Shown here piece by piece: positions 6,735-27,113 of a stretch of 34,491 nt of DNA. The DNA is taken from positions 1-34,491 of the forward strand of contig CAKZYH010000371.1 of the NCBI GenBank assembly GCA_937884725.1. Direction: 5' to 3'. This DNA is from an uncultured Paracoccaceae bacterium. Lineage in GTDB: Bacteria > Pseudomonadota > Alphaproteobacteria > Rhizobiales > Amorphaceae. The position numbers were made by a program, and so were the translations under genes. Numbering within the stretch: the first letter of the stretch is position 1; every line of letters starts with the position of its first letter. The notes under the pieces are model-generated. The model searched no databases. It was not told the origin of the DNA and saw only the letters and a program-made list of their open reading frames with translations.

Positions 6735-7550
6735 CTACTGCCGCTCTGCCGCCTTCGCGTTGGTCTGCAACAGCCCCTTCAACTCCGCCACATCGTCGCT
6801 GAGTTTGGCGAGCGATGCGTGGACGGATGCTGCCTCATCGGCAAGTGCCACACGGCCTTCCGTCGCCGTCTCCTCCACCTGCTCTTGCATCGCCGAGACC
6901 ACAACGCCGATAAACAGGTTCAGCACCACAAACGTCGACAGAAGAATAAACGGCACGAAGAAAATCCAGGCGTAAGGAAACACCTCCATCACCGGCCGCG
7001 AAATTCCCATCGACCAGGATTCCAACGTCATGATCTGGAACAGCGTGTAAGCGGACGCGCCAAGTGTCCCGAAAAACTCCGGAAATGCCTCTTTAAACAG
7101 CTCAGTCGCCATCACCGATGCCACGTAAAACACGATGCACATCAAAAGGATGATCGACCCCATCCCGGGCAGCGCGGCAATCAACCCAACCACCACCTTA
7201 CGCAGCGATGGCACGACGGAAATCAGCCGCAGCACCCGCAAAATTCGCAAGGCGCGCAGCACCGAGAACGGCCCCGAATCGGGCATCAGCGCGATCCCCA
7301 CGATCGTCAGGTCGAACAGGCTCCAAGGGTCTTTGAAAAAGCGCGCCCGATGCGCGTAAAGGCGCATCGCGATCTCCACCACGAAGACGCCGAGGATCGT
7401 TTTGTCGATGGCAAGGAGCACCGGGCCGATGGCGGCCATCACGCTGGCACTGGTCTCCAGCCCCAACGTGATCGCGTTGATGATGATCAGCGCAGTGATC
7501 GACCATTCCCACGCTTTGGTGGCCAACAGGTGGGCGACCTTCTCGCGCAT
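6735..7550 (-). CDS. Voltage-gated sodium channel, NaChBac/NavAb family
   Basis: 271 aa; S4 VLRALRILRVLRLISVVPSLRKVV, pore MTLESWSMGISRPVMEVFPYAWIFFVPF, S6 and a C-terminal helical/coiled-coil-like tail. Confidence 0.92.
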   Translation of the reverse strand: MREKVAHLLATKAWEWSITALIIINAITLGLETSASVMAAIGPVLLAIDKTILGVFVVEIAMRLYAHRARFFKDPWSLFDLTIVGIALMPDSGPFSVLRALRILRVLRLISVVPSLRKVVVGLIAALPGMGSIILLMCIVFYVASVMATELFKEAFPEFFGTLGASAYTLFQIMTLESWSMGISRPVMEVFPYAWIFFVPFILLSTFVVLNLFIGVVVSAMQEQVEETATEGRVALADEAASVHASLAKLSDDVAELKGLLQTNAKAAERQ

Positions 7551-7633
7551 CGGCGCACTCTCCAGGTTCTAAAAAGCACCCGGGAGATTGGCGCGGCGAC
7601 GACGCCGGGCAAGCGCCGCCGTCGCGCAGTAGC

Positions 7634-8629
7634 CTAAAGGGTCACCACAACCCTGCCCCGCACGCCGCCTTTCAAGATGCTGCGGCCAAGCTCCGGCAGA
7701 TCCTCAAGCGACGCTTCGGCGATCATGTCGTCGAGCTTGGCAAGCGGCAGATCGGTCGCCACCCGATCCCAAGCCGCAAGGCGCGGCTCACGCGGTTGCA
7801 TCACCGAATCGATGCCCAAAATGTTGGCGCCGCGCAGGAGGAACGGGATGACCGTCGCGCCCTCAAGCGCCGCGCCGCCGGCGAGCCCGACCGCCGCCGC
7901 GCTGCCGCCATACTGCAGCAGCGTCATCACATGGGCGAGCATGGCGCCCCCCACGGCATCAACGCAGCCCGCATAAGTCTCCCGGCCCAGCGGGCGTTTG
8001 GGCGCATCGGCAAGATCAGACCGGGGGACGATGGTGCTTGCCCCCAGCGACTTCAAATATGCTTCCTGCTCCGGCCGACCCGTCACGGCCGCAACCTCGT
8101 AGCCAAGGTTGGCCAGGATCGCGACAGCCACCGACCCCACACCGCCGGCAGCGCCGGTGACCAGCACAGGCTTTCCGCCGGGTGCCATGCCGTGCGCCTC
8201 CAGCGCCATCACCGCCAGCATCGACGTGAAGCCAGCTGTGCCAACCGCCATCGCCTGCCGCGCCGACAAACCCTTGGGCAGCGGCACCAGCCAGTCGCCC
8301 TTCACCCGCGCCTTGTCCGCGTAGCCACCCCACCAGACTTCGCCAACGCGCCAACCGGTGAGCACAACCTCGTCGCCCGGCGCGTAACGCGGATCGTCAG
8401 ACGCTTCCACAACACCGGCGAAATCGATGCCCGGAACGTGCGGGTAGTCACGGACCAAGCCGCCGCCCCCCGTCAGGCAAAGCCCGTCTTTATAGTTCAG
8501 CGTTGTGTGGGTGACCTTCACCGTCACCAGTTGATCGCCATCGGCCCCGGCGGGCAGCCGCGCCTCGTCGATGTCTTCCACCGCTGCGGACACCCCGCTG
8601 TCGGTCTTGTTGACGATGATGGCTCTCAT
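7634..8629 (-). CDS. acuI: Acrylyl-CoA reductase (NADPH), MDR family AcuI/YhdH type
   Basis: 331 aa; TTLNYKDGLCLTGGGG, HVPGIDFAGVV, VTGAAGGVGSVAVAILANLGYEVAAVTG, SLGAS.I, GIDSV. Confidence 0.87.
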   Translation of the reverse strand: MRAIIVNKTDSGVSAAVEDIDEARLPAGADGDQLVTVKVTHTTLNYKDGLCLTGGGGLVRDYPHVPGIDFAGVVEASDDPRYAPGDEVVLTGWRVGEVWWGGYADKARVKGDWLVPLPKGLSARQAMAVGTAGFTSMLAVMALEAHGMAPGGKPVLVTGAAGGVGSVAVAILANLGYEVAAVTGRPEQEAYLKSLGASTIVPRSDLADAPKRPLGRETYAGCVDAVGGAMLAHVMTLLQYGGSAAAVGLAGGAALEGATVIPFLLRGANILGIDSVMQPREPRLAAWDRVATDLPLAKLDDMIAEASLEDLPELGRSILKGGVRGRVVVTL

Positions 8630-8632
8630 GGC

Positions 8633-8660
8633 GCGTCCCCGTGCTTTCTTATGGGGACGC
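8633..8660 (-). promoter_or_regulatory. Perfect 8-bp stem-loop covering the acuI Shine-Dalgarno
   Basis: Minus strand GCGTCCCC-ATAAGAAAGCAC-GGGGACGC then GCC-ATG; the SD-like GGGGA lies in the 3' arm. Confidence 0.6.
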
Positions 8661-8684
8661 CCTGCATGGCCTGCGCAGGCGTTG

Positions 8685-9329
8685 TCAACGGTCGGTGTTC
8701 GCCTCGTCCGCCCCGTCGTTCTCGTCCGGCTTGCGGCGACGCGGCAGCACGGACGCTGCCTTAAGCGCCAGATCGTTGATACGCGCGCCCAGAGCCAAGA
8801 GTTGCACGAGCCGGTCGGTCGGCAGGCGGTTCACGTCATCGTACCAACCGGTCAGCAGCTCGATGAGCTTGGTCATCTCCTCGATGCGCTCAAACGCGTA
8901 TGCTTCACCCTCACCGGGCGTATGGTGAAGTTGCAGCTCCCGCAGCTTGGTCAGAGTCGGGTCAATCTCCCGCCGTTTACGCTCCTCCACCAGCGTTCGC
9001 ACGATCACCCAAAGATCGTCCGGCGTGGTGAAGTACTCTCGGCGGTCACCCGGAATATGCTTCAGCCGCACAAGCTTCCACGCCTGAAGTTCCTTCAAGC
9101 CCATCGACACGTTGGAGCGTGAAAAGCCCAGTTGTTCTGAAATCTGCTCGGCGTTCAGCGGCGCTTCGTTAAGGAACAGCAGCGCGTAGATTTGCCCGAC
9201 GGTGCGGTTGATCCCCCACCGCGAGCCCATCTCGCCGAAGTGGAGGACAAACTCTTCATGGAGGGGTGAGAGATTCACGGGCACCTTCACACAAACGAAC
9301 GGCGCCCCAGCATGGCAGGGGCGCCGCAC
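8685..9329 (-). CDS. GbsR/MarR-family transcriptional regulator
   Basis: FGEMGSRWGINRTVGQIYALLFLNEAPLNAEQISEQLGFSRSNVSMGLKELQAWKLVRLKHIPGDRREYF; true start may be a GTG/ATG inside the first ~20 codons. Confidence 0.88.
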   Translation of the reverse strand: MRRPCHAGAPFVCVKVPVNLSPLHEEFVLHFGEMGSRWGINRTVGQIYALLFLNEAPLNAEQISEQLGFSRSNVSMGLKELQAWKLVRLKHIPGDRREYFTTPDDLWVIVRTLVEERKRREIDPTLTKLRELQLHHTPGEGEAYAFERIEEMTKLIELLTGWYDDVNRLPTDRLVQLLALGARINDLALKAASVLPRRRKPDENDGADEANTDR

Positions 9330-9391
9330 GTCTTACAAGCTTCGCGGTGACGCGGCGCAAGAACTCACGCCGCATCGTATCATTGACCGGC

Positions 9392-17627: not shown

Positions 17628-18647
17628 ATGGCTCTAAAGACTATCGCGCTCGCGAGTGTTGCCGCCGTCACGCTGGGTGGCGTGGCCAGCGCTCAGGAAT
17701 TCACCCTGCGCATCCAAAACCACCAGTCGCCTGAGTCGTTGGTGGGCAAAAACATCGCTCAGTGGGAAAACGACGTGGAAGTCATGTCCGGCGGCCGCGT
17801 CGAAATTGAGATGTTTTATTCGTCGGCCATCGTGAAATCGGTCGAAACATTCGACGCTGCCATCAACGGGATCGTCGATGCTGATTTCACCAACGGCAAC
17901 TACCAGGTCGGCAAAGACCCCGCCTTCCAGTTCGTGTCCGACATCATGGGCGGGTACGAAACGCCATGGCAAATGTATGCCTGGCTTTATAATGGCGGCG
18001 GCATGGAGCTGACCCAAAAGCTGTATAACAGCTATGGGATGCACCTTCTCGGCTGGCAGGTGCAGGGGATGGAAAGCCTGAACTCCGCCACGCCCATCGA
18101 AGGTCCGGCAGACCTGGTCGACTGGAAGTTCCGCTCACCGCCGGGGCTTGAGACGATGATCTTCGCCAACCTTGGCGCGTCCCCCATCGTGATTGACTTC
18201 ACCGAGGTGTTTACGTCGCTGGAAACAGGCATCATCGACGGCGCCGATGCGTCCAACGTGTCGACCAACAAGTCGCTCGGCATCTACGACCTGGTGAAGC
18301 ACACCACGTATCCCGGCTTCCACTCCATGCCCGCCGACCACATGGCCATCAATCTCGATGTCTGGAACACGCTGCCGGAAGACATCCAGCGGATGATGGA
18401 AGTGGCTGCGCAGAAGGCTTCGTTCCGCACAACGCTCGACTATTCGGTCGGCATCCAAGAAACGGTCAACCTGCTGCAGGGCGACGTCACGTTCCACGAC
18501 TGGTCGGCTGAAGACCGCTCCACCTTCCGCGAGAATGCGCGCAAGGCATGGGCGGACTTTGCAACCACCGACACGTCGAAGGAGCTCGTCGAGTCGCACC
18601 TGGAGTTCATGAACAAGATCGGCCTGGTGACGTCCGGCGCCCAATAA
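17628..18647 (+). CDS. TRAP transporter substrate-binding protein, DctP/FcbT1-like (paralogue 1)
   Basis: ORF 17535..18647; signal-peptide start MALKTIALASVAAVTLGGVASAQEFTLRIQ after GGGAGGAG; DWKFRSPPGLETMIFANLGASPIVIDFTEVFTSLE. Confidence 0.93.
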   Translation: MALKTIALASVAAVTLGGVASAQEFTLRIQNHQSPESLVGKNIAQWENDVEVMSGGRVEIEMFYSSAIVKSVETFDAAINGIVDADFTNGNYQVGKDPAFQFVSDIMGGYETPWQMYAWLYNGGGMELTQKLYNSYGMHLLGWQVQGMESLNSATPIEGPADLVDWKFRSPPGLETMIFANLGASPIVIDFTEVFTSLETGIIDGADASNVSTNKSLGIYDLVKHTTYPGFHSMPADHMAINLDVWNTLPEDIQRMMEVAAQKASFRTTLDYSVGIQETVNLLQGDVTFHDWSAEDRSTFRENARKAWADFATTDTSKELVESHLEFMNKIGLVTSGAQ

Positions 18648-18659
18648 GTTCAGATCAAC

Positions 18660-18694
18660 GGCCTGGCGTGGATAGCGCCAGGCCGCCTTTTCTT
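18660..18694 (+). terminator. Rho-independent terminator after TRAP SBP 1
   Basis: Perfect stem GGCCTGGCG (18660-18668)/CGCCAGGCC (18676-18684) followed by GCCTTTTCTT. Confidence 0.75.
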
Positions 18695-18706
18695 GCGATT
18701 AGCGGT

Positions 18707-19078
18707 CTATCGGCCGTAGAAGAACTCTTCGCGGACAACTTTGCCGTCGGCGACGGTAAAGATCCCCACTTCCTGCATCTTGTGTTCCTTGCCCGACTGC
18801 TTTTCGACGGCAGTCATGCCGAAGATGACCGCAAACCGGTCTTCGCCGTGGATCATGGGATCGGAGACGGTGACGTCCCTCATCTCCATCATGCTGTCCC
18901 ACCACGCGTGCTTGGCCTTCATGGCCTCCATGCCTTTGCTTTCGGCGCTCATGGAAGGGTCCATCGAGTAAGCCTCCACCGAGACGCAATCGGGCGAATA
19001 GTGATTGGCCAGGAGGGCATCCAGTTCGCCGCTACGGTTCATCTCGACCACGGCGTTGGCAATCTCATCGAGTGTCAT
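18707..19078 (-). CDS. NTF2/SnoaL-like small protein
   Basis: ORF 18707..19237; likely start MTLDEIANAVVEMNRSGELDALLANHYSPDCVSVEAYSM at 19078; NTF2-like fold pattern ending VADGKVVREEFFYGR. Confidence 0.72.
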   Translation of the reverse strand: MTLDEIANAVVEMNRSGELDALLANHYSPDCVSVEAYSMDPSMSAESKGMEAMKAKHAWWDSMMEMRDVTVSDPMIHGEDRFAVIFGMTAVEKQSGKEHKMQEVGIFTVADGKVVREEFFYGR

Positions 19079-19124
19079 GGTTCTCTCCCTGTCTTTCCCC
19101 CTTTGGGATGGAAAAACACGAACA

Positions 19125-19143
19125 TTGCAAGAACTTTGTGCAA
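19125..19143. promoter_or_regulatory. Candidate operator, imperfect palindrome TTGCAAGAACTTTGTGCAA in divergent promoter region
   Basis: 14 of 19 positions symmetric (TTGCAnnAAnTTnnTGCAA); a further TTGCA at 19153-19157; between the divergent NTF2-like gene and TRAP SBP 2. Confidence 0.4.
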
Positions 19144-19252
19144 GATCGTGCATTGCAGATCGACCATGCCCTGAAATAAGTTGCGACCAATTCCTCGATA
19201 GCGAGGGGCGCGGCGGGCCTTTGCCGTCGCGGACCAAAACAGGGAGTAGTCT

Positions 19253-20260
19253 ATGATCCGCTCATTATTGCTTGGCGCTTCTGTGGCCGCATTCGCTGCG
19301 ACCGGTGCGCTGGCTCAAGAATTTACCATGCGCATCCAAACGCACCATTCGCCGGAGTCCATCAACGGCCAAGCGATCGCGCAGTTTTATGACGACGTCG
19401 AAGTCATGTCCGGTGGCCGCATCGAGATTGAGGAGTTTTATGCCTCAGCAGTGGTGAAGTCGCCCGAGACGTTCGACGCGACGATCAACGGCATCCTGGA
19501 CGGCGACATGACGTCCGGCGCCTACCAGACCGGTAAAAACACGGCGTTCCAGTTCATCGGCGACCCGATGGGCGGTTACGACACCCCGTGGCAGCTCTAC
19601 GCCTTCCTTTATAATGGCGGTGGCCTCGATAAGGCGCAGGAGCTTTATAACGACCTTGGCATGCAGCTGATCGGTTGGCATATCGCTGCGCCGGAATCCC
19701 TGGCATCCGGCCGTCCTCTGCGCAACGCGGCCGACATGGAAGGTTGGAAGTTCCGCTCGCCCCCGGGCATGCAGACCCAAGTGTTTGCCAACCTTGGCGC
19801 ATCGCCGATCGTGATGGACTTCACCGAAGTGTTTACCTCGCTGGAGTCGGGCATCATCGAGGGCGCCGACATGTCGAACCTTGCGGTCAACAAGTCGGCC
19901 GGTCTCTACGATGTGGTGAAGCACGCCACGTATCCGGGCTTCCACTCCATGCCGGCCGACCACTTCGCCATCCGCAAGGATCTGTGGGACTCGCTGCCGG
20001 AAGACCTCCAGCGCATCATCGACGTCGCGCTTCAGAAAATGGCGTTCCGCCTGACCCTCACCGGCTCCGTCGCCACCGAGGAAGCGGCGAAAGCGCTGGC
20101 TGAGCAGGGCGTGACTGTGCACGATTGGTCGCCGGAAGACCGCGCGTCCTACCGTGAAGCAGCGCTGTCAGCCTGGGATACCTTCGCCGACACCGACGAT
20201 GCCCGCGAGCTGATCTCGATGCACAAAGAGTTCCAGAACCGCATTGGTCTGGTCGAGTAG
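19253..20260 (+). CDS. TRAP transporter substrate-binding protein, DctP/FcbT1-like (paralogue 2)
   Basis: 335 aa; MIRSLLLGASVAAFAATGALAQEFTMRIQTHHSPESINGQ...; strong similarity by eye to paralogues 1 and 3. Confidence 0.93.
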   Translation: MIRSLLLGASVAAFAATGALAQEFTMRIQTHHSPESINGQAIAQFYDDVEVMSGGRIEIEEFYASAVVKSPETFDATINGILDGDMTSGAYQTGKNTAFQFIGDPMGGYDTPWQLYAFLYNGGGLDKAQELYNDLGMQLIGWHIAAPESLASGRPLRNAADMEGWKFRSPPGMQTQVFANLGASPIVMDFTEVFTSLESGIIEGADMSNLAVNKSAGLYDVVKHATYPGFHSMPADHFAIRKDLWDSLPEDLQRIIDVALQKMAFRLTLTGSVATEEAAKALAEQGVTVHDWSPEDRASYREAALSAWDTFADTDDARELISMHKEFQNRIGLVE

Positions 20261-20290
20261 TTGACGGCAGGCGCCCGAAGCGCTTTTGGC

Positions 20291-20311
20291 GGCCCCGTCT
20301 CTCTCGGGGCC
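20291..20311 (+). terminator. GC-rich hairpin after TRAP SBP 2, possible terminator
   Basis: GGCCCCG (20291-20297)/CGGGGCC (20305-20311), 7-nt loop; weak T-tract (GTTGCCGTTT). Confidence 0.45.
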
Positions 20312-20440
20312 GTTGCCGTTTCGGTGCGGCCCCGCTAGGGTCGCGCCAACTCGGTGGGTGACCGCCGAACGACAAACCAGAACGATATCCAACAGCTGGG
20401 GGCCGCTCCGGAAGAGGGCGCCACCTTAGGGAGGTCAGAC

Positions 20441-21451
20441 ATGATCCGCACACTTCTTGCCGGTGCCGCCATTGCGGCGCTTACCACCGGCGCCTTCGCG
20501 CAAGAGTTCACCCTGCGCATCCAAACGCACCTGTCACCCGAATCGGTGTCCGGCAAAAACGCTGCAACGTTCTTTGACGACATCGAAGTGATGTCCGGCG
20601 GCCGGATCGAAATCGAAGAGTTTTACTCCTCGGCGGTGGTGAAGTCGGTCGAAACCTTCGACGCTGCGGTCAACGGCATCCTGGACGGCGACATGACCGG
20701 CGGCGCTTACCAGACCGGTAAGGATCCCGCATTCCAGTTTGTGGGCGACATCATGGGCGGCTACGACACGCCCTGGCAGCTCTACGCCTGGCTTTATAAC
20801 GGCGGCGGCTTCGAAGTCGCGAACGCGCTCTACAACGAATACAACATGCAGCTGATCGGCTGGTGGATCCCGGGCCCCGAGTCGCTGTCCTCATCAGAGC
20901 CGCTGACCGGCCCTGAAGCCATGGTGGACTGGAAGTTCCGCTCCCCTCCGGGCATGCAGACCAAGATTTTCGCCAACATGGGCGCATCGCCCATCGTGAT
21001 GGACTTCACCGAAATCTTCACCGCGCTTGAGTCCGGCATCATCGACGGTGCCGATGCGTCCAACATCTCCACCAACGTGTCGCTCGGCCTCTACGACATC
21101 GTGAAGCACGCCACCTATCCGGGCTTCCACTCCATGCCGGCCGACCACCTCGCCATCAACAAGGACGTCTGGGACTCCATGCCGGAGGACCTGCAGCGGA
21201 TCGTTGAAGTGGCGATGCAGAAGCTGTCATTCCGCACCACGCTCGACTATGAGGTCGACATCCAGCGCGCTGCCAACGCGATGGCGGAAGCTGGCGTGAC
21301 GCTGCACGACTGGTCAGCCGAAGACCGCGGCGCCTTCCGCGACGCTGCCGTGAAAGCGTGGGATGAGTTTGCCACCACGCAGCTTGCCAAGGACCTTGTG
21401 GCCCAACACAAAGAGTTCCTGACGCAAATTGGCCTGTTCGGCCAGCAATAA
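20441..21451 (+). CDS. TRAP transporter substrate-binding protein, DctP/FcbT1-like (paralogue 3)
   Basis: ORF 20354..21451; signal-peptide start MIRTLLAGAAIAALTTGAFAQEFTLRIQTHLSPES at 20441 after a GGGAGG ribosome-binding site. Confidence 0.93.
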   Translation: MIRTLLAGAAIAALTTGAFAQEFTLRIQTHLSPESVSGKNAATFFDDIEVMSGGRIEIEEFYSSAVVKSVETFDAAVNGILDGDMTGGAYQTGKDPAFQFVGDIMGGYDTPWQLYAWLYNGGGFEVANALYNEYNMQLIGWWIPGPESLSSSEPLTGPEAMVDWKFRSPPGMQTKIFANMGASPIVMDFTEIFTALESGIIDGADASNISTNVSLGLYDIVKHATYPGFHSMPADHLAINKDVWDSMPEDLQRIVEVAMQKLSFRTTLDYEVDIQRAANAMAEAGVTLHDWSAEDRGAFRDAAVKAWDEFATTQLAKDLVAQHKEFLTQIGLFGQQ

Positions 21452-21502
21452 GCTTAAAGCACCAAGGCTCGGCCCGCCCATTCGGCGGGCCCACCTCATC
21501 AG

Positions 21503-21528
21503 CCAGTCCCATCGGGGCTGGTTTTTTT
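21503..21528 (+). terminator. Rho-independent terminator between TRAP SBP 3 and convergent tetR
   Basis: CCAGTCCC-ATC-GGGGCTGG (one G-T wobble) followed by TTTTTTT. Confidence 0.8.
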
Positions 21529-21532
21529 GTTG

Positions 21533-22141
21533 TCACGTCACCGGCGCAAAAAGGCGAACAAGGCAGTCGGTGGCGCGTTCGGCGCGTCGCTCGCCAGCCC
21601 CCGCCTCGGGGAGCTCAGCCGACCCAATGATCCTGCGCACTGGATGCTCCGCCAAAAGAACACCCAGAAAGATCTCCGTCGCCTCCTCAGGCGTTTGTGA
21701 ACGCAGATCAACCACGCCACGGTCCGCAGCAGCCTCAACCAACGCGATAAGTTTCGGCGCGATCCGCTCACGGCCCCCCTCAGCCAATGCGCGGCCGAGC
21801 GTTCCACTATCAGCGACGTCCGCCGCGGCCGCTCGGTTCAGGAGAACCACCCTTTCGCTCGTGAGGAGCTCATACAAAAGACTACCCGCCGCCATCAGCG
21901 CAGCAAGCGGATCGCGGCCATCAGCAACAGCGCCGTCCAATTGGCGGGCCAGCGCGTCAGAGTTTCGACGCACCAACGTCGCGAAAAGCCCCGCCTTGTT
22001 GGCGTAGCGCGCATAAAGCGTCTCGTTGGAGACTCGCGCCCGCTTGGCGATCGCTAGCATGGACGCGCCCTTATACCCCCGCTCCGCCAGCACAGCGTAG
22101 GCCGCTTCTTCGATCGCCAGAGTGCGCTGCTCATCGTCCAT
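21533..22141 (-). CDS. TetR/AcrR-family transcriptional regulator
   Basis: ORF 21533..22177; HTH LAIEEAAYAVLAERGYKGASMLAIAKRARVSNETLYARYANKAGLF; start placed at 22141 (MDDEQRT) because the first 12 codons of the longer ORF overlap an operator-like palindrome. Confidence 0.88.
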   Translation of the reverse strand: MDDEQRTLAIEEAAYAVLAERGYKGASMLAIAKRARVSNETLYARYANKAGLFATLVRRNSDALARQLDGAVADGRDPLAALMAAGSLLYELLTSERVVLLNRAAAADVADSGTLGRALAEGGRERIAPKLIALVEAAADRGVVDLRSQTPEEATEIFLGVLLAEHPVRRIIGSAELPEAGAGERRAERATDCLVRLFAPVT

Positions 22142-22161
22142 ATTGCCCACTTGCCTCAACC

Positions 22162-22198
22162 GTACACTTATGTACATAACGTTCGTACAGAAATGTAC
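22162..22198. promoter_or_regulatory. Duplicated TetR-type operator: GTACACTTATGTAC and GTACAGAAATGTAC
   Basis: Two perfect GTACA-N4-TGTAC inverted repeats at 22162-22175 and 22185-22198, centres 23 bp apart, between divergent tetR and the 22213 ORF. Confidence 0.75.
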
Positions 22199-22212
22199 AG
22201 CGGATCTTCACC

Positions 22213-22605
22213 ATGACAAAACCCAGTGATGCGCCGGTCGTAGCCCTCGCCGTCCTCCAGGCCATCTCCCTGTTTGCACTTTTCACTCAGACCGAACCGC
22301 ACCCGCCCGCTGTGGTGGCGCCGTTCGCGATAGGCCCATTCTTGGCGGCTTCACTCGCGGCCTGCGCGGCGGCGATCCTCGCCGAGGATCGCCGTGCTCG
22401 GATCGTCAGCCTCAGCTTCGTCGCGGCGCTGGCGTTGGTCTCGTTCGGCCCACAAAAATACGTTGACCCAAAGATCGGCCAAATCTGGCCGGCGGTGGTC
22501 GCGGGCCAAGTCGCCATCGCGTTCATCGTGTTGCAGTGCGTCAAGCTTTACCGCGAGGGAGCGTCTCGCCCGGATCAGGCAAACGTCGCGCAAGAGGGTT
22601 CGTGA
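22213..22605 (+). CDS. Small hypothetical membrane protein (about 4 hydrophobic segments)
   Basis: 130 aa; VVALAVLQAISLFALF, VAPFAIGPFLAASLAACAAAI, IVSLSFVAALALVSF, WPAVVAGQVAIAFIVLQCVKL; divergent from tetR. Confidence 0.7.
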   Translation: MTKPSDAPVVALAVLQAISLFALFTQTEPHPPAVVAPFAIGPFLAASLAACAAAILAEDRRARIVSLSFVAALALVSFGPQKYVDPKIGQIWPAVVAGQVAIAFIVLQCVKLYREGASRPDQANVAQEGS

Positions 22606-22752
22606 CGTTAAGTCTAACATTTGCATTAAATTTGGGCACCGCATGGGGGATTCCGAAACCAGATCGGTGCTGAGCCCGCATAAAGGCCTTGATCCAACGC
22701 CTTAGTACCGCCAATGTGCAGTCACGCGCACGCTAATTGTGCAGCGCAACAA

Positions 22753-22771
22753 CACTTGGATCATACAAGTG
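22753..22771. promoter_or_regulatory. Candidate operator CACTTG-GATCATA-CAAGTG upstream of dctQ
   Basis: Perfect 6-bp inverted repeat with 7-nt spacer, 42 bp before the dctQ start. Confidence 0.5.
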
Positions 22772-22813
22772 CAAAGACGGGCCCGCCAAAGGCCTGAAGT
22801 TTAGGGAGTCTCT

Positions 22814-23383
22814 ATGGTCGAGACAGAGCCGAAGAGCCCAATCGATTACATCAGCCTCGGCATCAGCCGAATCGGGATGTTCTTGGTCGCGGCGATCGTC
22901 TCGATTATTTTCTACGAAGTGGTCATGCGCTACTTCTTCGAAAAACCTACCCTCTGGGTGAATGAGATGAGCCTCTGGATTGGTGGCTTCATCTACCTGC
23001 TCGCGGCATTGTATGTCTTGCAGCAGCGCGGTCACATCCGCATCACACTGCTCTACGACGTATGTCCGCGTTGGCTTCAACGCGTCTTCGATGTGATTTC
23101 CACCTTACTCATCGTGATCTTTGGCACGATGATTATCCACGGTGGATTCAACGAAGCCGTTGCCAAGTTCAACCGTTGGGAAACCTTCGGCACAGCTTGG
23201 GATCCTCCGATCCCTGCAACAATGAAACCCGCGGTCCTTGTGATCGCGGGTCTCATCGTCGCCCAAGCCATCTCGAACCTCATCCGAGATTGGAATGAAG
23301 TGCCAGTGCCTGAAGGGACAGGCGAAATGGCCGATGAAATTCGAGCTCAGTTCGAACAGAATGCACCAAGCCGGCACGATTAA
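22814..23383 (+). CDS. TRAP transporter small permease (DctQ/FcbT2-like)
   Basis: 189 aa; 4 TM segments, FYEVVMRYFFEKPTLWVNEMSLWIGGFIYLLAALYVLQQRGHIRI. Confidence 0.92.
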   Translation: MVETEPKSPIDYISLGISRIGMFLVAAIVSIIFYEVVMRYFFEKPTLWVNEMSLWIGGFIYLLAALYVLQQRGHIRITLLYDVCPRWLQRVFDVISTLLIVIFGTMIIHGGFNEAVAKFNRWETFGTAWDPPIPATMKPAVLVIAGLIVAQAISNLIRDWNEVPVPEGTGEMADEIRAQFEQNAPSRHD

Positions 23384-23397
23384 CGTGCCGGTCTTTT
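23371..23397 (+). terminator. Intrinsic terminator-like hairpin overlapping the dctQ stop codon
   Basis: CCGGCACG (23371-23378)-ATTAA-CGTGCCGG (23384-23391) followed by TCTTTTTG; TAA stop lies in the loop. Confidence 0.72.
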
Positions 23398-23509
23398 TGT
23401 CTACACCACAGCTTTCACCCCGATGAGTTCCCTCCTGAATGCGCAAGCGGGCGGCCCGCCGGCGCATGTCCGAACCCTTTCCGAACAATAGCCAACGGCA
23501 GCCGCGACG

Positions 23510-25318
23510 ATGCCCACTTTCATGCCCTTCTACCCCTGGCTTGCCTCTTTGTTGGTATCGCTCGCCTGGTTCAGCTACCTGACAGTCAAACGCGACGATA
23601 AGCTCGCGGCGATGTTCATCGCGACAATTCTCGCGCTGCTCATCTTCGTTTTCCCGCCAGCGCTGTCGGAAGGGTTCGACACCCAACCCCTCCGGACTGA
23701 GTTTTGGAACGCGTTCGACGCACTTCCCAAAGTCTCCGGCATGGGAATCGCCCAGCTGTCGGTCGTCCTGCTCATCGGCATCTTTGTGCTTTTGGCCATC
23801 GGCATGCCCCTTGGCTTCGCTTCCGGCTTCCTCGCCGTCATGGTGCTCTACCTGCGCTTCGGTCCAGACGTCCTGTTCCGGCAGTTCGGCACCGGCCCGT
23901 TCTCGGTGCTGTCCCAGCGCATCTACGGGTTGATGACGGACTACGTGATCATCTCGGTCCCGCTGTTCATCTTCATGGCCTCACTGCTAGAGCGCTCCGG
24001 CCTTGCGAAGGACATGTACTCCTCGCTCAATGTGTGGCTGTCGCGGACCCGAGGCGGTATTGCGCTGGTCACGGCCATCATGGCCATCATCATGGCCGCG
24101 ATGTCGGGCATTATCGGTGGTGAGGTCGTGCTCCTCGGCCTGATTGCGCTGCCGCAGATGCTGCGCCTTGGCTACGACCAAAACCTTGCCATCGGTACGG
24201 TCTGCGCCTCCGGCTCGCTGGGCACCATGATCCCGCCCTCCATCGTCCTCATCATCTACGGGCTCGTCACCGAGACATCGATCCAAGCGCTTTTCACGGC
24301 GGCGTTCGTGCCCGGCGCCATCCTGGCGTCCTGCTACCTCATCTACATCGTGGTCCGCACGCAGCTAAACCCGTCCCTCGCCCCGCTCCCTGAGCCCAGT
24401 GACGACGAGATGTACGGTTGGGCAAAACCGGTGCGGTTCCTTGCCTTCTCCATCTCCATCGCCGTGCTTTTGGGTTCTTTCGTGTGCGGCTTCATCCTGC
24501 TGAAAGCCACCATCTTCAACTTCACCGGGCGAGAAGCGGTGATGGTCTATGGCCAGGACGCGTACCTGCGGGTCGGCCAATTCATGGGCGTCCTCGCGAT
24601 CGTCACGGCGGCGATGCTCGCAATCTTCAAACTACACCGCGTTCAGCAGGCCTGGGACATGGGCAAAGGCCTGGCACCGCCGCTCGTCGTGGTGCTCTCG
24701 GTGCTCGGCTCGATCTACGGCGGCATCACCGGCATCACAGAAGCGGCCGGTATCGGCACCGTCGCGGTCTTGTTCTTCATCCTAGTCCGGGGCGAGCTCA
24801 CGTGGACGCTGTTCTACCAGTCGCTCCAACGCACCTTCAAATCCACCGGCACTATTTTGATGGTTACGTTCGGCGCCACCTGCCTTGCGGGCGCATACTC
24901 CATCGCCGGCGGCCCGGCCTACGTCGCCAACCTCATCACCGGTTCCGAACTCACACCGATGGGCATCTTGCTCATCATGATGGCGATCTTCCTGGTGCTC
25001 GGCGCACTGATGGACTGGGTCGGCATCGTGCTTCTAGTGATGCCGGTCTTCCTGCCCATCGTCCTGCAAATCGCTCCCGAGCTTGGGCTCAGCGCATCCG
25101 AGGCGAGGATTTGGTTCGGCATCCTGTTCTGCGTGAACATGCAGGTGTCGTTCTTGTCGCCACCGTTTGGGCCTGCGGCCTTCTATCTGAAATCGGTGGC
25201 CCCACCGCACATCACGCTGCCGGCCATCTTCAAAAGCTTCCTGCCGTTCATCTGCCTGCAGATCTTCGTGCTGATGCTGATCCTGTTCTTCCCAGGCCTG
25301 ACCCTGCTGCTGGTCTAA
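23510..25318 (+). CDS. TRAP transporter large permease (DctM/FcbT3-like, extended form)
   Basis: 602 aa; IFVLLAIGMPLGFASGFLAVMVLY, MAAMSGIIGGEVVLLGLIALPQMLRLGYDQNLAIGTVCASGSLGTMIPPSIVLIIYG, GGITGITEAAGIG. Confidence 0.94.
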   Translation: MPTFMPFYPWLASLLVSLAWFSYLTVKRDDKLAAMFIATILALLIFVFPPALSEGFDTQPLRTEFWNAFDALPKVSGMGIAQLSVVLLIGIFVLLAIGMPLGFASGFLAVMVLYLRFGPDVLFRQFGTGPFSVLSQRIYGLMTDYVIISVPLFIFMASLLERSGLAKDMYSSLNVWLSRTRGGIALVTAIMAIIMAAMSGIIGGEVVLLGLIALPQMLRLGYDQNLAIGTVCASGSLGTMIPPSIVLIIYGLVTETSIQALFTAAFVPGAILASCYLIYIVVRTQLNPSLAPLPEPSDDEMYGWAKPVRFLAFSISIAVLLGSFVCGFILLKATIFNFTGREAVMVYGQDAYLRVGQFMGVLAIVTAAMLAIFKLHRVQQAWDMGKGLAPPLVVVLSVLGSIYGGITGITEAAGIGTVAVLFFILVRGELTWTLFYQSLQRTFKSTGTILMVTFGATCLAGAYSIAGGPAYVANLITGSELTPMGILLIMMAIFLVLGALMDWVGIVLLVMPVFLPIVLQIAPELGLSASEARIWFGILFCVNMQVSFLSPPFGPAAFYLKSVAPPHITLPAIFKSFLPFICLQIFVLMLILFFPGLTLLLV

Positions 25319-25598: not shown

Positions 25599-27113
25599 AT
25601 GAGCCAGCTCACCCGCACCGTCCGCCTGTCTGCGGAGGATGACGTGGTTACCGCGCTGGTGCCGTTGGAGGCGGGCGTCGCCATTGATGGTGTCACCACG
25701 GCTGGGCTTGTACCGCGGGGGCACAAGGTTGCGCTCCACGCCATCGCCCAGGGAGAACCGGTGCGCAAATACGGCCAGGTGATCGGCTACGCTTCAGCGG
25801 ACATCCCCGCGGGCGCCCATGTCCACGATCACAACCTGTCGTTCCGCAACACCGACTTCGAATACCGTTTCGGCACCAACCTGAAGCCTGCCCCAGCCCC
25901 CGCGCAGCAAGACACCTTCATGGGCTTCCGCCGCGACAACGGCCGCATGGGCACGCGCAACTACATCGCGCTCATCACCAGCGTGAACTGCTCGGCAACG
26001 GCCGCCCACAAGATCGCCGCCCACTTCACGCCCGATCGGCTGGCGGACTACCCGAACGTCGACGGCGTCGTTGCCTTCGCCCATGGAACCGGCTGCGGTA
26101 TGGCCGGCTCCGGCGACGGTTTTGCCGCCTTGCAGCGCACCATGTGGGGTTATGCCCGCCATCCCAACCACGCGGGCGTCGTTATGGTGGGCCTCGGTTG
26201 CGAGATGAACCAGATCGATTGGTTGCTGGAGGCGTACGGCCTCAAGCAAGGCCCCCTTTTCCAAACCATGAACATTCAAGATGTGGCGGGACTGCGCAAG
26301 ACAATCGATGCCGGCATAGCAAAAGTGGAGGCGATGCTTCCCATCGCCAACAAGGCCAAGCGTGAACCCTGCCCCGTGAGCGCGCTCACCGTTGCGTTGC
26401 AGTGCGGCGGCTCCGACGCGTGGTCCGGCATCACGGCCAACCCCGCCCTTGGCCATGCCTGCGACCTGCTCGCAGGCCAAGGCGGCATCGGCCTCCTCGC
26501 CGAAACACCTGAAATCTATGGCGCTGAACATTTGTTGGCCGAACGGGCCGCGACACCGACGGTGGGCCGCAAGCTCATAGAGCGCGTGCGGTGGTGGGAA
26601 GACTATGTGGCCCGCAACAAGGGGTCCATGGACAACAACCCGTCCCCCGGCAACAAGCGCGGCGGTCTCACCACGATCTTAGAAAAATCCCTCGGCGCCA
26701 CTGCGAAAGGCGGTACCACTCCGCTCACCGGCGTTTACGAGTATGCCGAGGAGGCCAAAACGCCCGGCTTCGGGTTCATGGACTCCCCCGGCTACGATCC
26801 TGCCTCTGTCACCGGCCAGATCGCATCCGGCAGCACCGTCGTCGTCTTCACAACAGGTCGCGGCTCTGCATTTGGCTCTAAGCCATCCCCGACCATCAAA
26901 GTCGCCACAAATTCAGAACTTTACAACAAGATGATCGACGATATGGACGTTAACGCCGGCCCGATCCTCACCGGCGAAGAGGACGTCGAGTCCGTCGGCC
27001 GGCACATCTATCAGCGCATTTTGGAGGTCGCGTCAGGGGCGACCACGAAGTCCGAAGCCCAGGGTTTGGGGGACCATGAGTTCGTCCCCTGGCAAATTGG
27101 TGCGGTCATGTAA
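25599..27113 (+). CDS. UxaA-family hydrolase/dehydratase (altronate/galactarate dehydratase family)
   Basis: ORF 25533..27113; likely start MSQLTRTVRLSAEDDVVTALVPLEAGV (SAF-like domain); FMGFRRDNGRMGTRNYIALITSVNCSAT, HGTGCGM, CGGSDAWSGITANPALG, TTGRGSAFGSKPSPTIKVATN. Confidence 0.88.
   Translation: MSQLTRTVRLSAEDDVVTALVPLEAGVAIDGVTTAGLVPRGHKVALHAIAQGEPVRKYGQVIGYASADIPAGAHVHDHNLSFRNTDFEYRFGTNLKPAPAPAQQDTFMGFRRDNGRMGTRNYIALITSVNCSATAAHKIAAHFTPDRLADYPNVDGVVAFAHGTGCGMAGSGDGFAALQRTMWGYARHPNHAGVVMVGLGCEMNQIDWLLEAYGLKQGPLFQTMNIQDVAGLRKTIDAGIAKVEAMLPIANKAKREPCPVSALTVALQCGGSDAWSGITANPALGHACDLLAGQGGIGLLAETPEIYGAEHLLAERAATPTVGRKLIERVRWWEDYVARNKGSMDNNPSPGNKRGGLTTILEKSLGATAKGGTTPLTGVYEYAEEAKTPGFGFMDSPGYDPASVTGQIASGSTVVVFTTGRGSAFGSKPSPTIKVATNSELYNKMIDDMDVNAGPILTGEEDVESVGRHIYQRILEVASGATTKSEAQGLGDHEFVPWQIGAVM

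Follow-up and report, generated by a model that had tools for sequence, protein, structure and literature searches.

A tripartite ATP-independent periplasmic (TRAP) transporter usually pairs one substrate-binding protein (SBP) with one set of membrane subunits, DctQ and DctM (together DctQM); how, then, is a locus to be understood in which three SBPs stand before a single DctQM? The question is raised by the window analysed here, a stretch of 34,491 nucleotides that constitutes contig C371 of a 4.4-Mb genome (552 contigs; ~90% complete) to which, among named organisms, Acuticoccus mangrovi is closest (DctM 75% identical). We propose that the locus encodes a multi-receptor TRAP importer in which the receptors share one DctQM, a reading to which, from sequence comparison, we would assign a probability of roughly 0.6.

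One membrane pair and several receptors

SBP1 (17628..18647), SBP2 (19253..20260) and SBP3 (20441..21451) are encoded in tandem on the forward strand, as are the small membrane subunit DctQ (22814..23383) and the large membrane subunit DctM (602 aa; 23510..25318). The first-pass annotation of this DNA had described three full-length tandem DctP proteins upstream of one DctQ-DctM pair, and this description was borne out: SBP1, SBP2 and SBP3 match the family-7 SBP domain PF03480 with 142, 148 and 147 bits (Pfam cut-off 23.4 bits), DctQ matches PF04290 (91.5 bits) and DctM matches PF06808 (226 bits), so that all components of a DctP-type TRAP transporter score above the Pfam cut-offs. Each SBP gene has a ribosome-binding-site-like purine run before its ATG, and the translations begin with signal-like N-termini. 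The identical motifs that had been quoted from the three proteins are all present exactly as quoted, and pairwise protein identity is 62% for SBP1/SBP2, 68% for SBP1/SBP3 and 69% for SBP2/SBP3. With identities of only 62-69% among the copies, and with three tandem SBPs plus DctQM also present in the separate assembly of A. mangrovi B2012 (genome G002, locus L061), we rejected a chance arrangement, an assembly duplicate or a chimera. Recent gene conversion was also rejected, since the sliding nucleotide identity among the three SBP genes contained no near-identical tract.

Only one DctQM had been noted in view, and indeed no second set was found anywhere in the window. Individual SBPs might nevertheless pair with a rival DctQM elsewhere, and this was sought across the window genome, which holds 38 DctP, 31 DctQ and 49 DctM matches or pieces. 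Despite the ~30 other DctQ genes, neither a second copy of the window DctM (at E<=1e-60) nor any second DctQM of the same subfamily was found; the next-best DctQ is just 34% identical and the nearest other DctM ~46%. Among ten genomes of the family, a DctM of the window subfamily occurs in seven, in a single copy each, and these seven carry between two and four SBPs of the clade to which SBP1-3 belong (window, three; G002, three; G003, four; G004, two; G005, two; G006, two; G007, three; 19 in total). The custom of one SBP per DctQM, which is not strictly defining, is thereby violated in all seven, whereas no SBP of the clade was found in the three genomes without a DctQM of this subfamily (G001, G008, G009). 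The earlier proposal that the receptors share one membrane component has therefore gained strong comparative support.

The SBP3 type adjoins DctQM in 7/7 Acuticoccus genomes. Fourteen of the 19 SBPs lie in the DctQM cluster and five are remote (two in G003 and one each in G005, G006 and G007); the SBP1 type (S1), which is DctQM-linked in the window, has standalone orthologues in G005 and G006, and the SBP2 type (S2), likewise linked in the window, has them in G003 and G007. A search with 52 DctM and 24 DctQ queries, reaching ~8 kb from each of the five remote SBPs (only ~4 kb on the contig-end side in G005), found neither a DctQ nor a DctM, whatever the subfamily. The standalone S1 copies of G005 and G006 (L161 3007-8502; L163 8119-13278) have neighbours in common, namely an ABC (ATP-binding cassette) transporter gene, a Crp-like gene and a gene for a metallo-beta-lactamase-fold protein.

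In the corresponding loci of ~80 genomes, one SBP of the clade accompanies DctQM, the exceptions being A. mangrovi, two Thalassobaculaceae loci with two SBPs and a handful of short contigs that stop before reaching the SBP. As a control for unlinked copies, we searched 19 other whole genomes from the order, all with this DctQM, and 23/23 SBPs adjoin a DctQM by position. Four control genomes (G088, G125, G272, G179) seemed to hold surplus or unpaired SBPs, each of which proved to have its own adjacent DctQM pair; the idea that surplus SBPs are usual in this subfamily was therefore rejected for the order. Since all control SBPs sit by a DctQM, clade receptors without one have been seen in Acuticoccus only. 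On these comparative grounds, the pattern is a genus-level expansion of the receptors alone around one membrane component. In Thalassobaculum litoreum, two very similar tandem SBPs stand before the same kind of DctQM, an independent duplication, and in a related metagenome-assembled genome the second SBP copy appears to be split between frames; the loci concerned are L071 (about 6922-9345) and L092 (about 7007-9160).

Origin and maintenance of the receptors

A maximum-likelihood tree built from 96 SBPs groups the 19 Acuticoccus receptors together in a single clade (support 100/100). Within it, S1 comprises the copies of the window, G002, G005 and G006 (100/100), and S2 those of the window, G003 and G007 (100/97), with the divergent fourth SBP of G003 joining at 91/90. 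A further group, D, unites SBPs of G002, G003, G004 and G007 (100/100) and has no member in the window. The SBP3 type (S3) is present once per genome, always DctQM-adjacent and on short branches, its monophyly being uncertain. The DctM tree separates G002/G005/G006 from G003/G004/G007, with the window apart. As S2 and D cross this split, the duplications that gave rise to them would predate it, and copies would later have disappeared or been relocated; lateral transfer between members of the genus may be an alternative source of their distribution. Within the groups, dN/dS (the ratio of nonsynonymous to synonymous substitution rates; Nei-Gojobori method, NG86) is ~0.1-0.4, with synonymous sites possibly near saturation, and all frames are intact. 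We therefore rejected the possibility that the extra copies are pseudogenes and take the low ratios to mean that each receptor lineage has been maintained by purifying selection.

The Acuticoccus SBPs are lineage-specific duplicates of the SBP found with this DctQM in ~75 other genomes, and the SBP3 lineage is most likely the original partner. In the model that we propose, duplication of the SBP3-lineage DctP in the Acuticoccus ancestor gave rise to about four lineages of receptors, whereas DctQM would have stayed single copy. Each periplasmic receptor would bind a 2-hydroxy- or 2-oxo-carboxylate, probably a sugar acid, by way of an arginine and a cation site common to all of them, the receptors differing in the part of the ligand that they bind beyond it, the tail. 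Once loaded, a receptor would close, dock on the same DctQM and deliver its cargo for Na+-driven import.

The ligand pocket and the likely substrate

In the receptor TakP, the ligand is held by Tyr100 and Arg177 together with a cation, which is in turn bound by Gln156, Glu214 and Glu240 and by the Trp215 main chain; Trp215 also contacts the ligand directly (PMC1839085). We mapped these contacts onto the receptors via 7UG8, in which the spacing is as in TakP; in SBP3 numbering, Y100 corresponds to Y90, Q156 to E147, R177 to R167, E214 to D205, W215 to residue 206 and E240 to S231. Y90, E147, R167, D205 and S231 are invariant in all Acuticoccus rows of the alignment and are found in >=95% of the outgroup; the conserved carboxylate-binding arginine is therefore present as R167. 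At residue 206, S1 has Ala and S2 has Met, and S3 has either Ala or His. The segment in which the first-pass annotation saw the three proteins differ falls in the alignment on the TakP loop that serves ligand and cation, where Glu214-Trp215 correspond to Asp205-Ala206, and in total 22 positions are fixed within and different between S1, S2 and S3, loop sites 29, 31, 85, 87, 142, 145, 210 and 211 among them.

The earlier suggestion that the ligand pockets differ is therefore upheld at residue 206 but not at the other five mapped contacts, which are identical in all three window receptors. Five invariant contacts beside a variable sixth suggest, at the level of aligned residues, a common carboxylate-plus-cation head group with different ligand tails, but the paralogue-specific changes show no significant clustering around the contacts.

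The AlphaFold model of SBP3 has a pLDDT (predicted local distance difference test) of 91.8. Its closest solved relative is 4PE3 of Rhodobacter sphaeroides (template-modelling score, TM, 0.87-0.92; 2.0 Å to the SBP3 model), and its other top solved matches include TTHA0766 with lactate, a ketoacid receptor and TakP. TakP (2HZK/2HZL) and TTHA0766 (2ZZV) are cation-dependent receptors of 2-oxo or 2-hydroxy acids whose fold resembles that of the model (TM ~0.79). Like them, the Acuticoccus receptors have the Arg and the Tyr, invariant, and acidic residues at two positions of the cation site; sequence identity to these proteins and to 4PE3 is, however, just 21-32%. The predicted cation ligands also depart from those of TakP, Gln156/Glu214/Glu240 being replaced by Glu147/Asp205/Ser231, invariant here, and Trp215 by Ala, Met or His.

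Sugar-acid catabolism genes predominate among those that recur near this DctQM in relatives. A galactarate/altronate-dehydratase family enzyme (SAF + GD_AH domains), encoded after DctM in the window (25602..27113, forward strand), follows DctQM in many relatives, including G006 (84%), and the family was found near DctQM in 28 loci. Tartronate-semialdehyde-reductase-like proteins are encoded near it in 35 loci, the IlvD/EDD family in 20, talarate/galactarate-dehydratase-like enzymes of the enolase superfamily in 17, a didehydro-deoxyrhamnonate-hydrolase-like enzyme in 17 and an idonate-dehydrogenase-like enzyme in 8. From this gene neighbourhood the substrates are probably sugar acids; since most of the enzymes score below the NCBIfam equivalog cut-offs, we name a ligand class and no single compound.

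Competing explanations, parallels and surroundings

The sharing of one DctQM by these receptors is supported by the pattern of one DctQM with many SBPs, the descent of these SBPs from a single origin, the retention of their sub-groups, the conserved contacts and the standalone orthologues. We infer that all receptors dock on this DctQM, that their ligands differ and to which class of compounds those ligands belong. Several points weigh on the other side. The 62-69% identity between receptors is no guarantee that they are exchangeable, since in the sialic acid system reconstituted Haemophilus influenzae SiaQM works with the SiaP of Aggregatibacter and not with that of P. profundum, and receptors of more distant species fail with it (PMC10942642). 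The window genome is ~90% complete in 552 contigs, so that the absence of a second DctQM is not certain from this genome alone. Independent expansions are few: one in Acuticoccus and perhaps a second, with two SBPs, in Thalassobaculum. The SBP and DctQM genes of the window are unlike a single transcription unit, with terminator-like hairpins downstream of SBP1 and of SBP3 and a tetR unit between the receptor genes and dctQM. Finally, paralogue-fixed changes near the mapped contacts were not enriched in a permutation test (P 0.05-0.44 by the distance chosen), which makes the divergence of the pockets only suggestive.

The five contacts that do not vary among the paralogues would fit a rival explanation in which the three receptors feed this DctQM with the same sugar acid at different affinity or expression, and were retained because they add dosage, widen the range of affinities or can be regulated separately; the hairpins after SBP1 and SBP3 and the opposite-strand gene between SBP1 and SBP2 would permit such separate regulation. 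However, residue 206, whose TakP counterpart touches the ligand directly, is always Met in S2 and always Ala in S1, the groups are distinguished by fixed positions that include loop sites, and the paralogues diverged before the genus radiated; we consider a common ligand unlikely, though it is the most credible of the alternatives. It is much less probable that SBP1 and SBP2 have left this DctQM and act in trans with one of the some 30 other TRAP membrane pairs. Among the ~30 other DctQ genes of the window genome, a DctQ-DctM pair at C290:10229-11930 lacks a DctP match in its vicinity, and three control genomes pair SBPs of the clade with a DctQM whose DctM scores nearer to the C490-type DctM of the window genome, from which it follows that SBP-DctQM pairings can change over evolution. 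Yet even the nearest other DctQM is just 34% (DctQ) to ~46% (DctM) identical, and the C490-type system comes with an SBP of its own; no SBP of that type was found in G004 or G005, which still carry extra receptors. (The other DctQM pair on contig C290 does have a DctP match.)

An equally improbable alternative is that the surplus receptors are sensors, chemotaxis proteins or ligand-buffering proteins and not transport subunits. The standalone orthologues without a linked TRAP membrane gene would fit such a role, and a signalling role has been suggested for orphan binding proteins of the related tripartite tricarboxylate transporter (TTT) class (PMC5812351). Against this, no sensor kinase or chemoreceptor was recognised among the inspected neighbours of the standalone copies, for which the annotation was non-exhaustive, and the extra SBPs are confined to genomes with this DctQM. 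We therefore favour receptors that share one DctQM. The fuller version of this reading, in which one DctQM takes four diverged receptors, some of them distantly encoded and each for a different sugar acid, we advance tentatively, as slightly less probable than not.

Cognate interactions between TRAP SBPs and their membrane components were termed 'usually unique' in a 2025 study, in which Pseudomonas aeruginosa with a disrupted IctPQM SBP still grew on itaconate, a result that the authors put down to DctP, which they suggest feeds IctQM (PMC12599236). The use of Aggregatibacter SiaP by the SiaQM of H. influenzae (PMC10942642) is a further precedent for imperfect pairing. That case resembles the present one in the evidence suggesting that a second, similar SBP feeds one DctQM-type pair, but the second SBP there has a complete system of its own, whereas no DctQM was found for the extra receptors here. 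Like other DctPQM transporters, the Acuticoccus system has all three components, with P-Q-M order in related genomes; it differs from them in having two to four receptors per DctQM, some unlinked, where one is usual. Binding proteins that outnumber their membrane components, many of them unlinked, are also known among the Bug/TctC orphan receptors of the TTT family in Bordetella (PMC5812351), although these belong to another protein family and number dozens, most without nearby membrane genes. In principle the arrangement is also like that of the multi-SBP ABC importers, in which several receptors dock on one membrane complex (PMC12599236), although these are ATP-driven and have unrelated membrane proteins.

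If the fuller reading is correct, the exchangeable receptor set would be a TRAP counterpart of the multi-receptor ABC importers. Acuticoccus is a natural place in which to test whether one TRAP pump is fed by several receptors. For the question of how TRAP docking specificity is set, it offers natural variants kept by evolution: the docking surface should be found among the residues that all the receptors share, and ligand specificity among those in which they differ. Counts of DctQM sets may also underestimate the substrates that a TRAP-rich bacterium can import. A literature search combining Acuticoccus with TRAP, and tandem DctP with one DctQM, found no description of such an arrangement, most subscription papers being outside its reach.

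The surroundings of the receptor genes agree with the remaining claims of the first-pass annotation, which had placed a terminator after SBP3 and a tetR unit before dctQM. An intrinsic-terminator-like hairpin lies 3' of SBP3 (21501..21523, forward strand), followed on the reverse strand by a TetR-family regulator with an AefR-like C-terminal domain (21536..22177). Three features are additional to that annotation. The first is a strong intrinsic-terminator-like hairpin 3' of SBP1 (18659..18685, forward strand), with an 11-bp stem and a T-rich tail. The second is a SnoaL-like gene (PF20409; 18710..19156, reverse strand) between SBP1 and SBP2, divergent from SBP2, and the third is a small hydrophobic open reading frame (22213..22605, forward strand), divergent from tetR and unassigned to a family, with no Pfam or NCBIfam match. 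The TetR gene and this reading frame (21536-22605), which lie between SBP3 and DctQ, occur at this place in the window only, without a counterpart in the clusters of the six relatives, and look like an inserted regulator-target pair. A SnoaL-like homologue in G006 (L160 8919-9290, forward strand; 48% identical) is divergent from the SBP3-type gene, so that a divergent pair of SnoaL-like gene and SBP is kept in the window, with SBP2, and in G006, with the SBP3 type.

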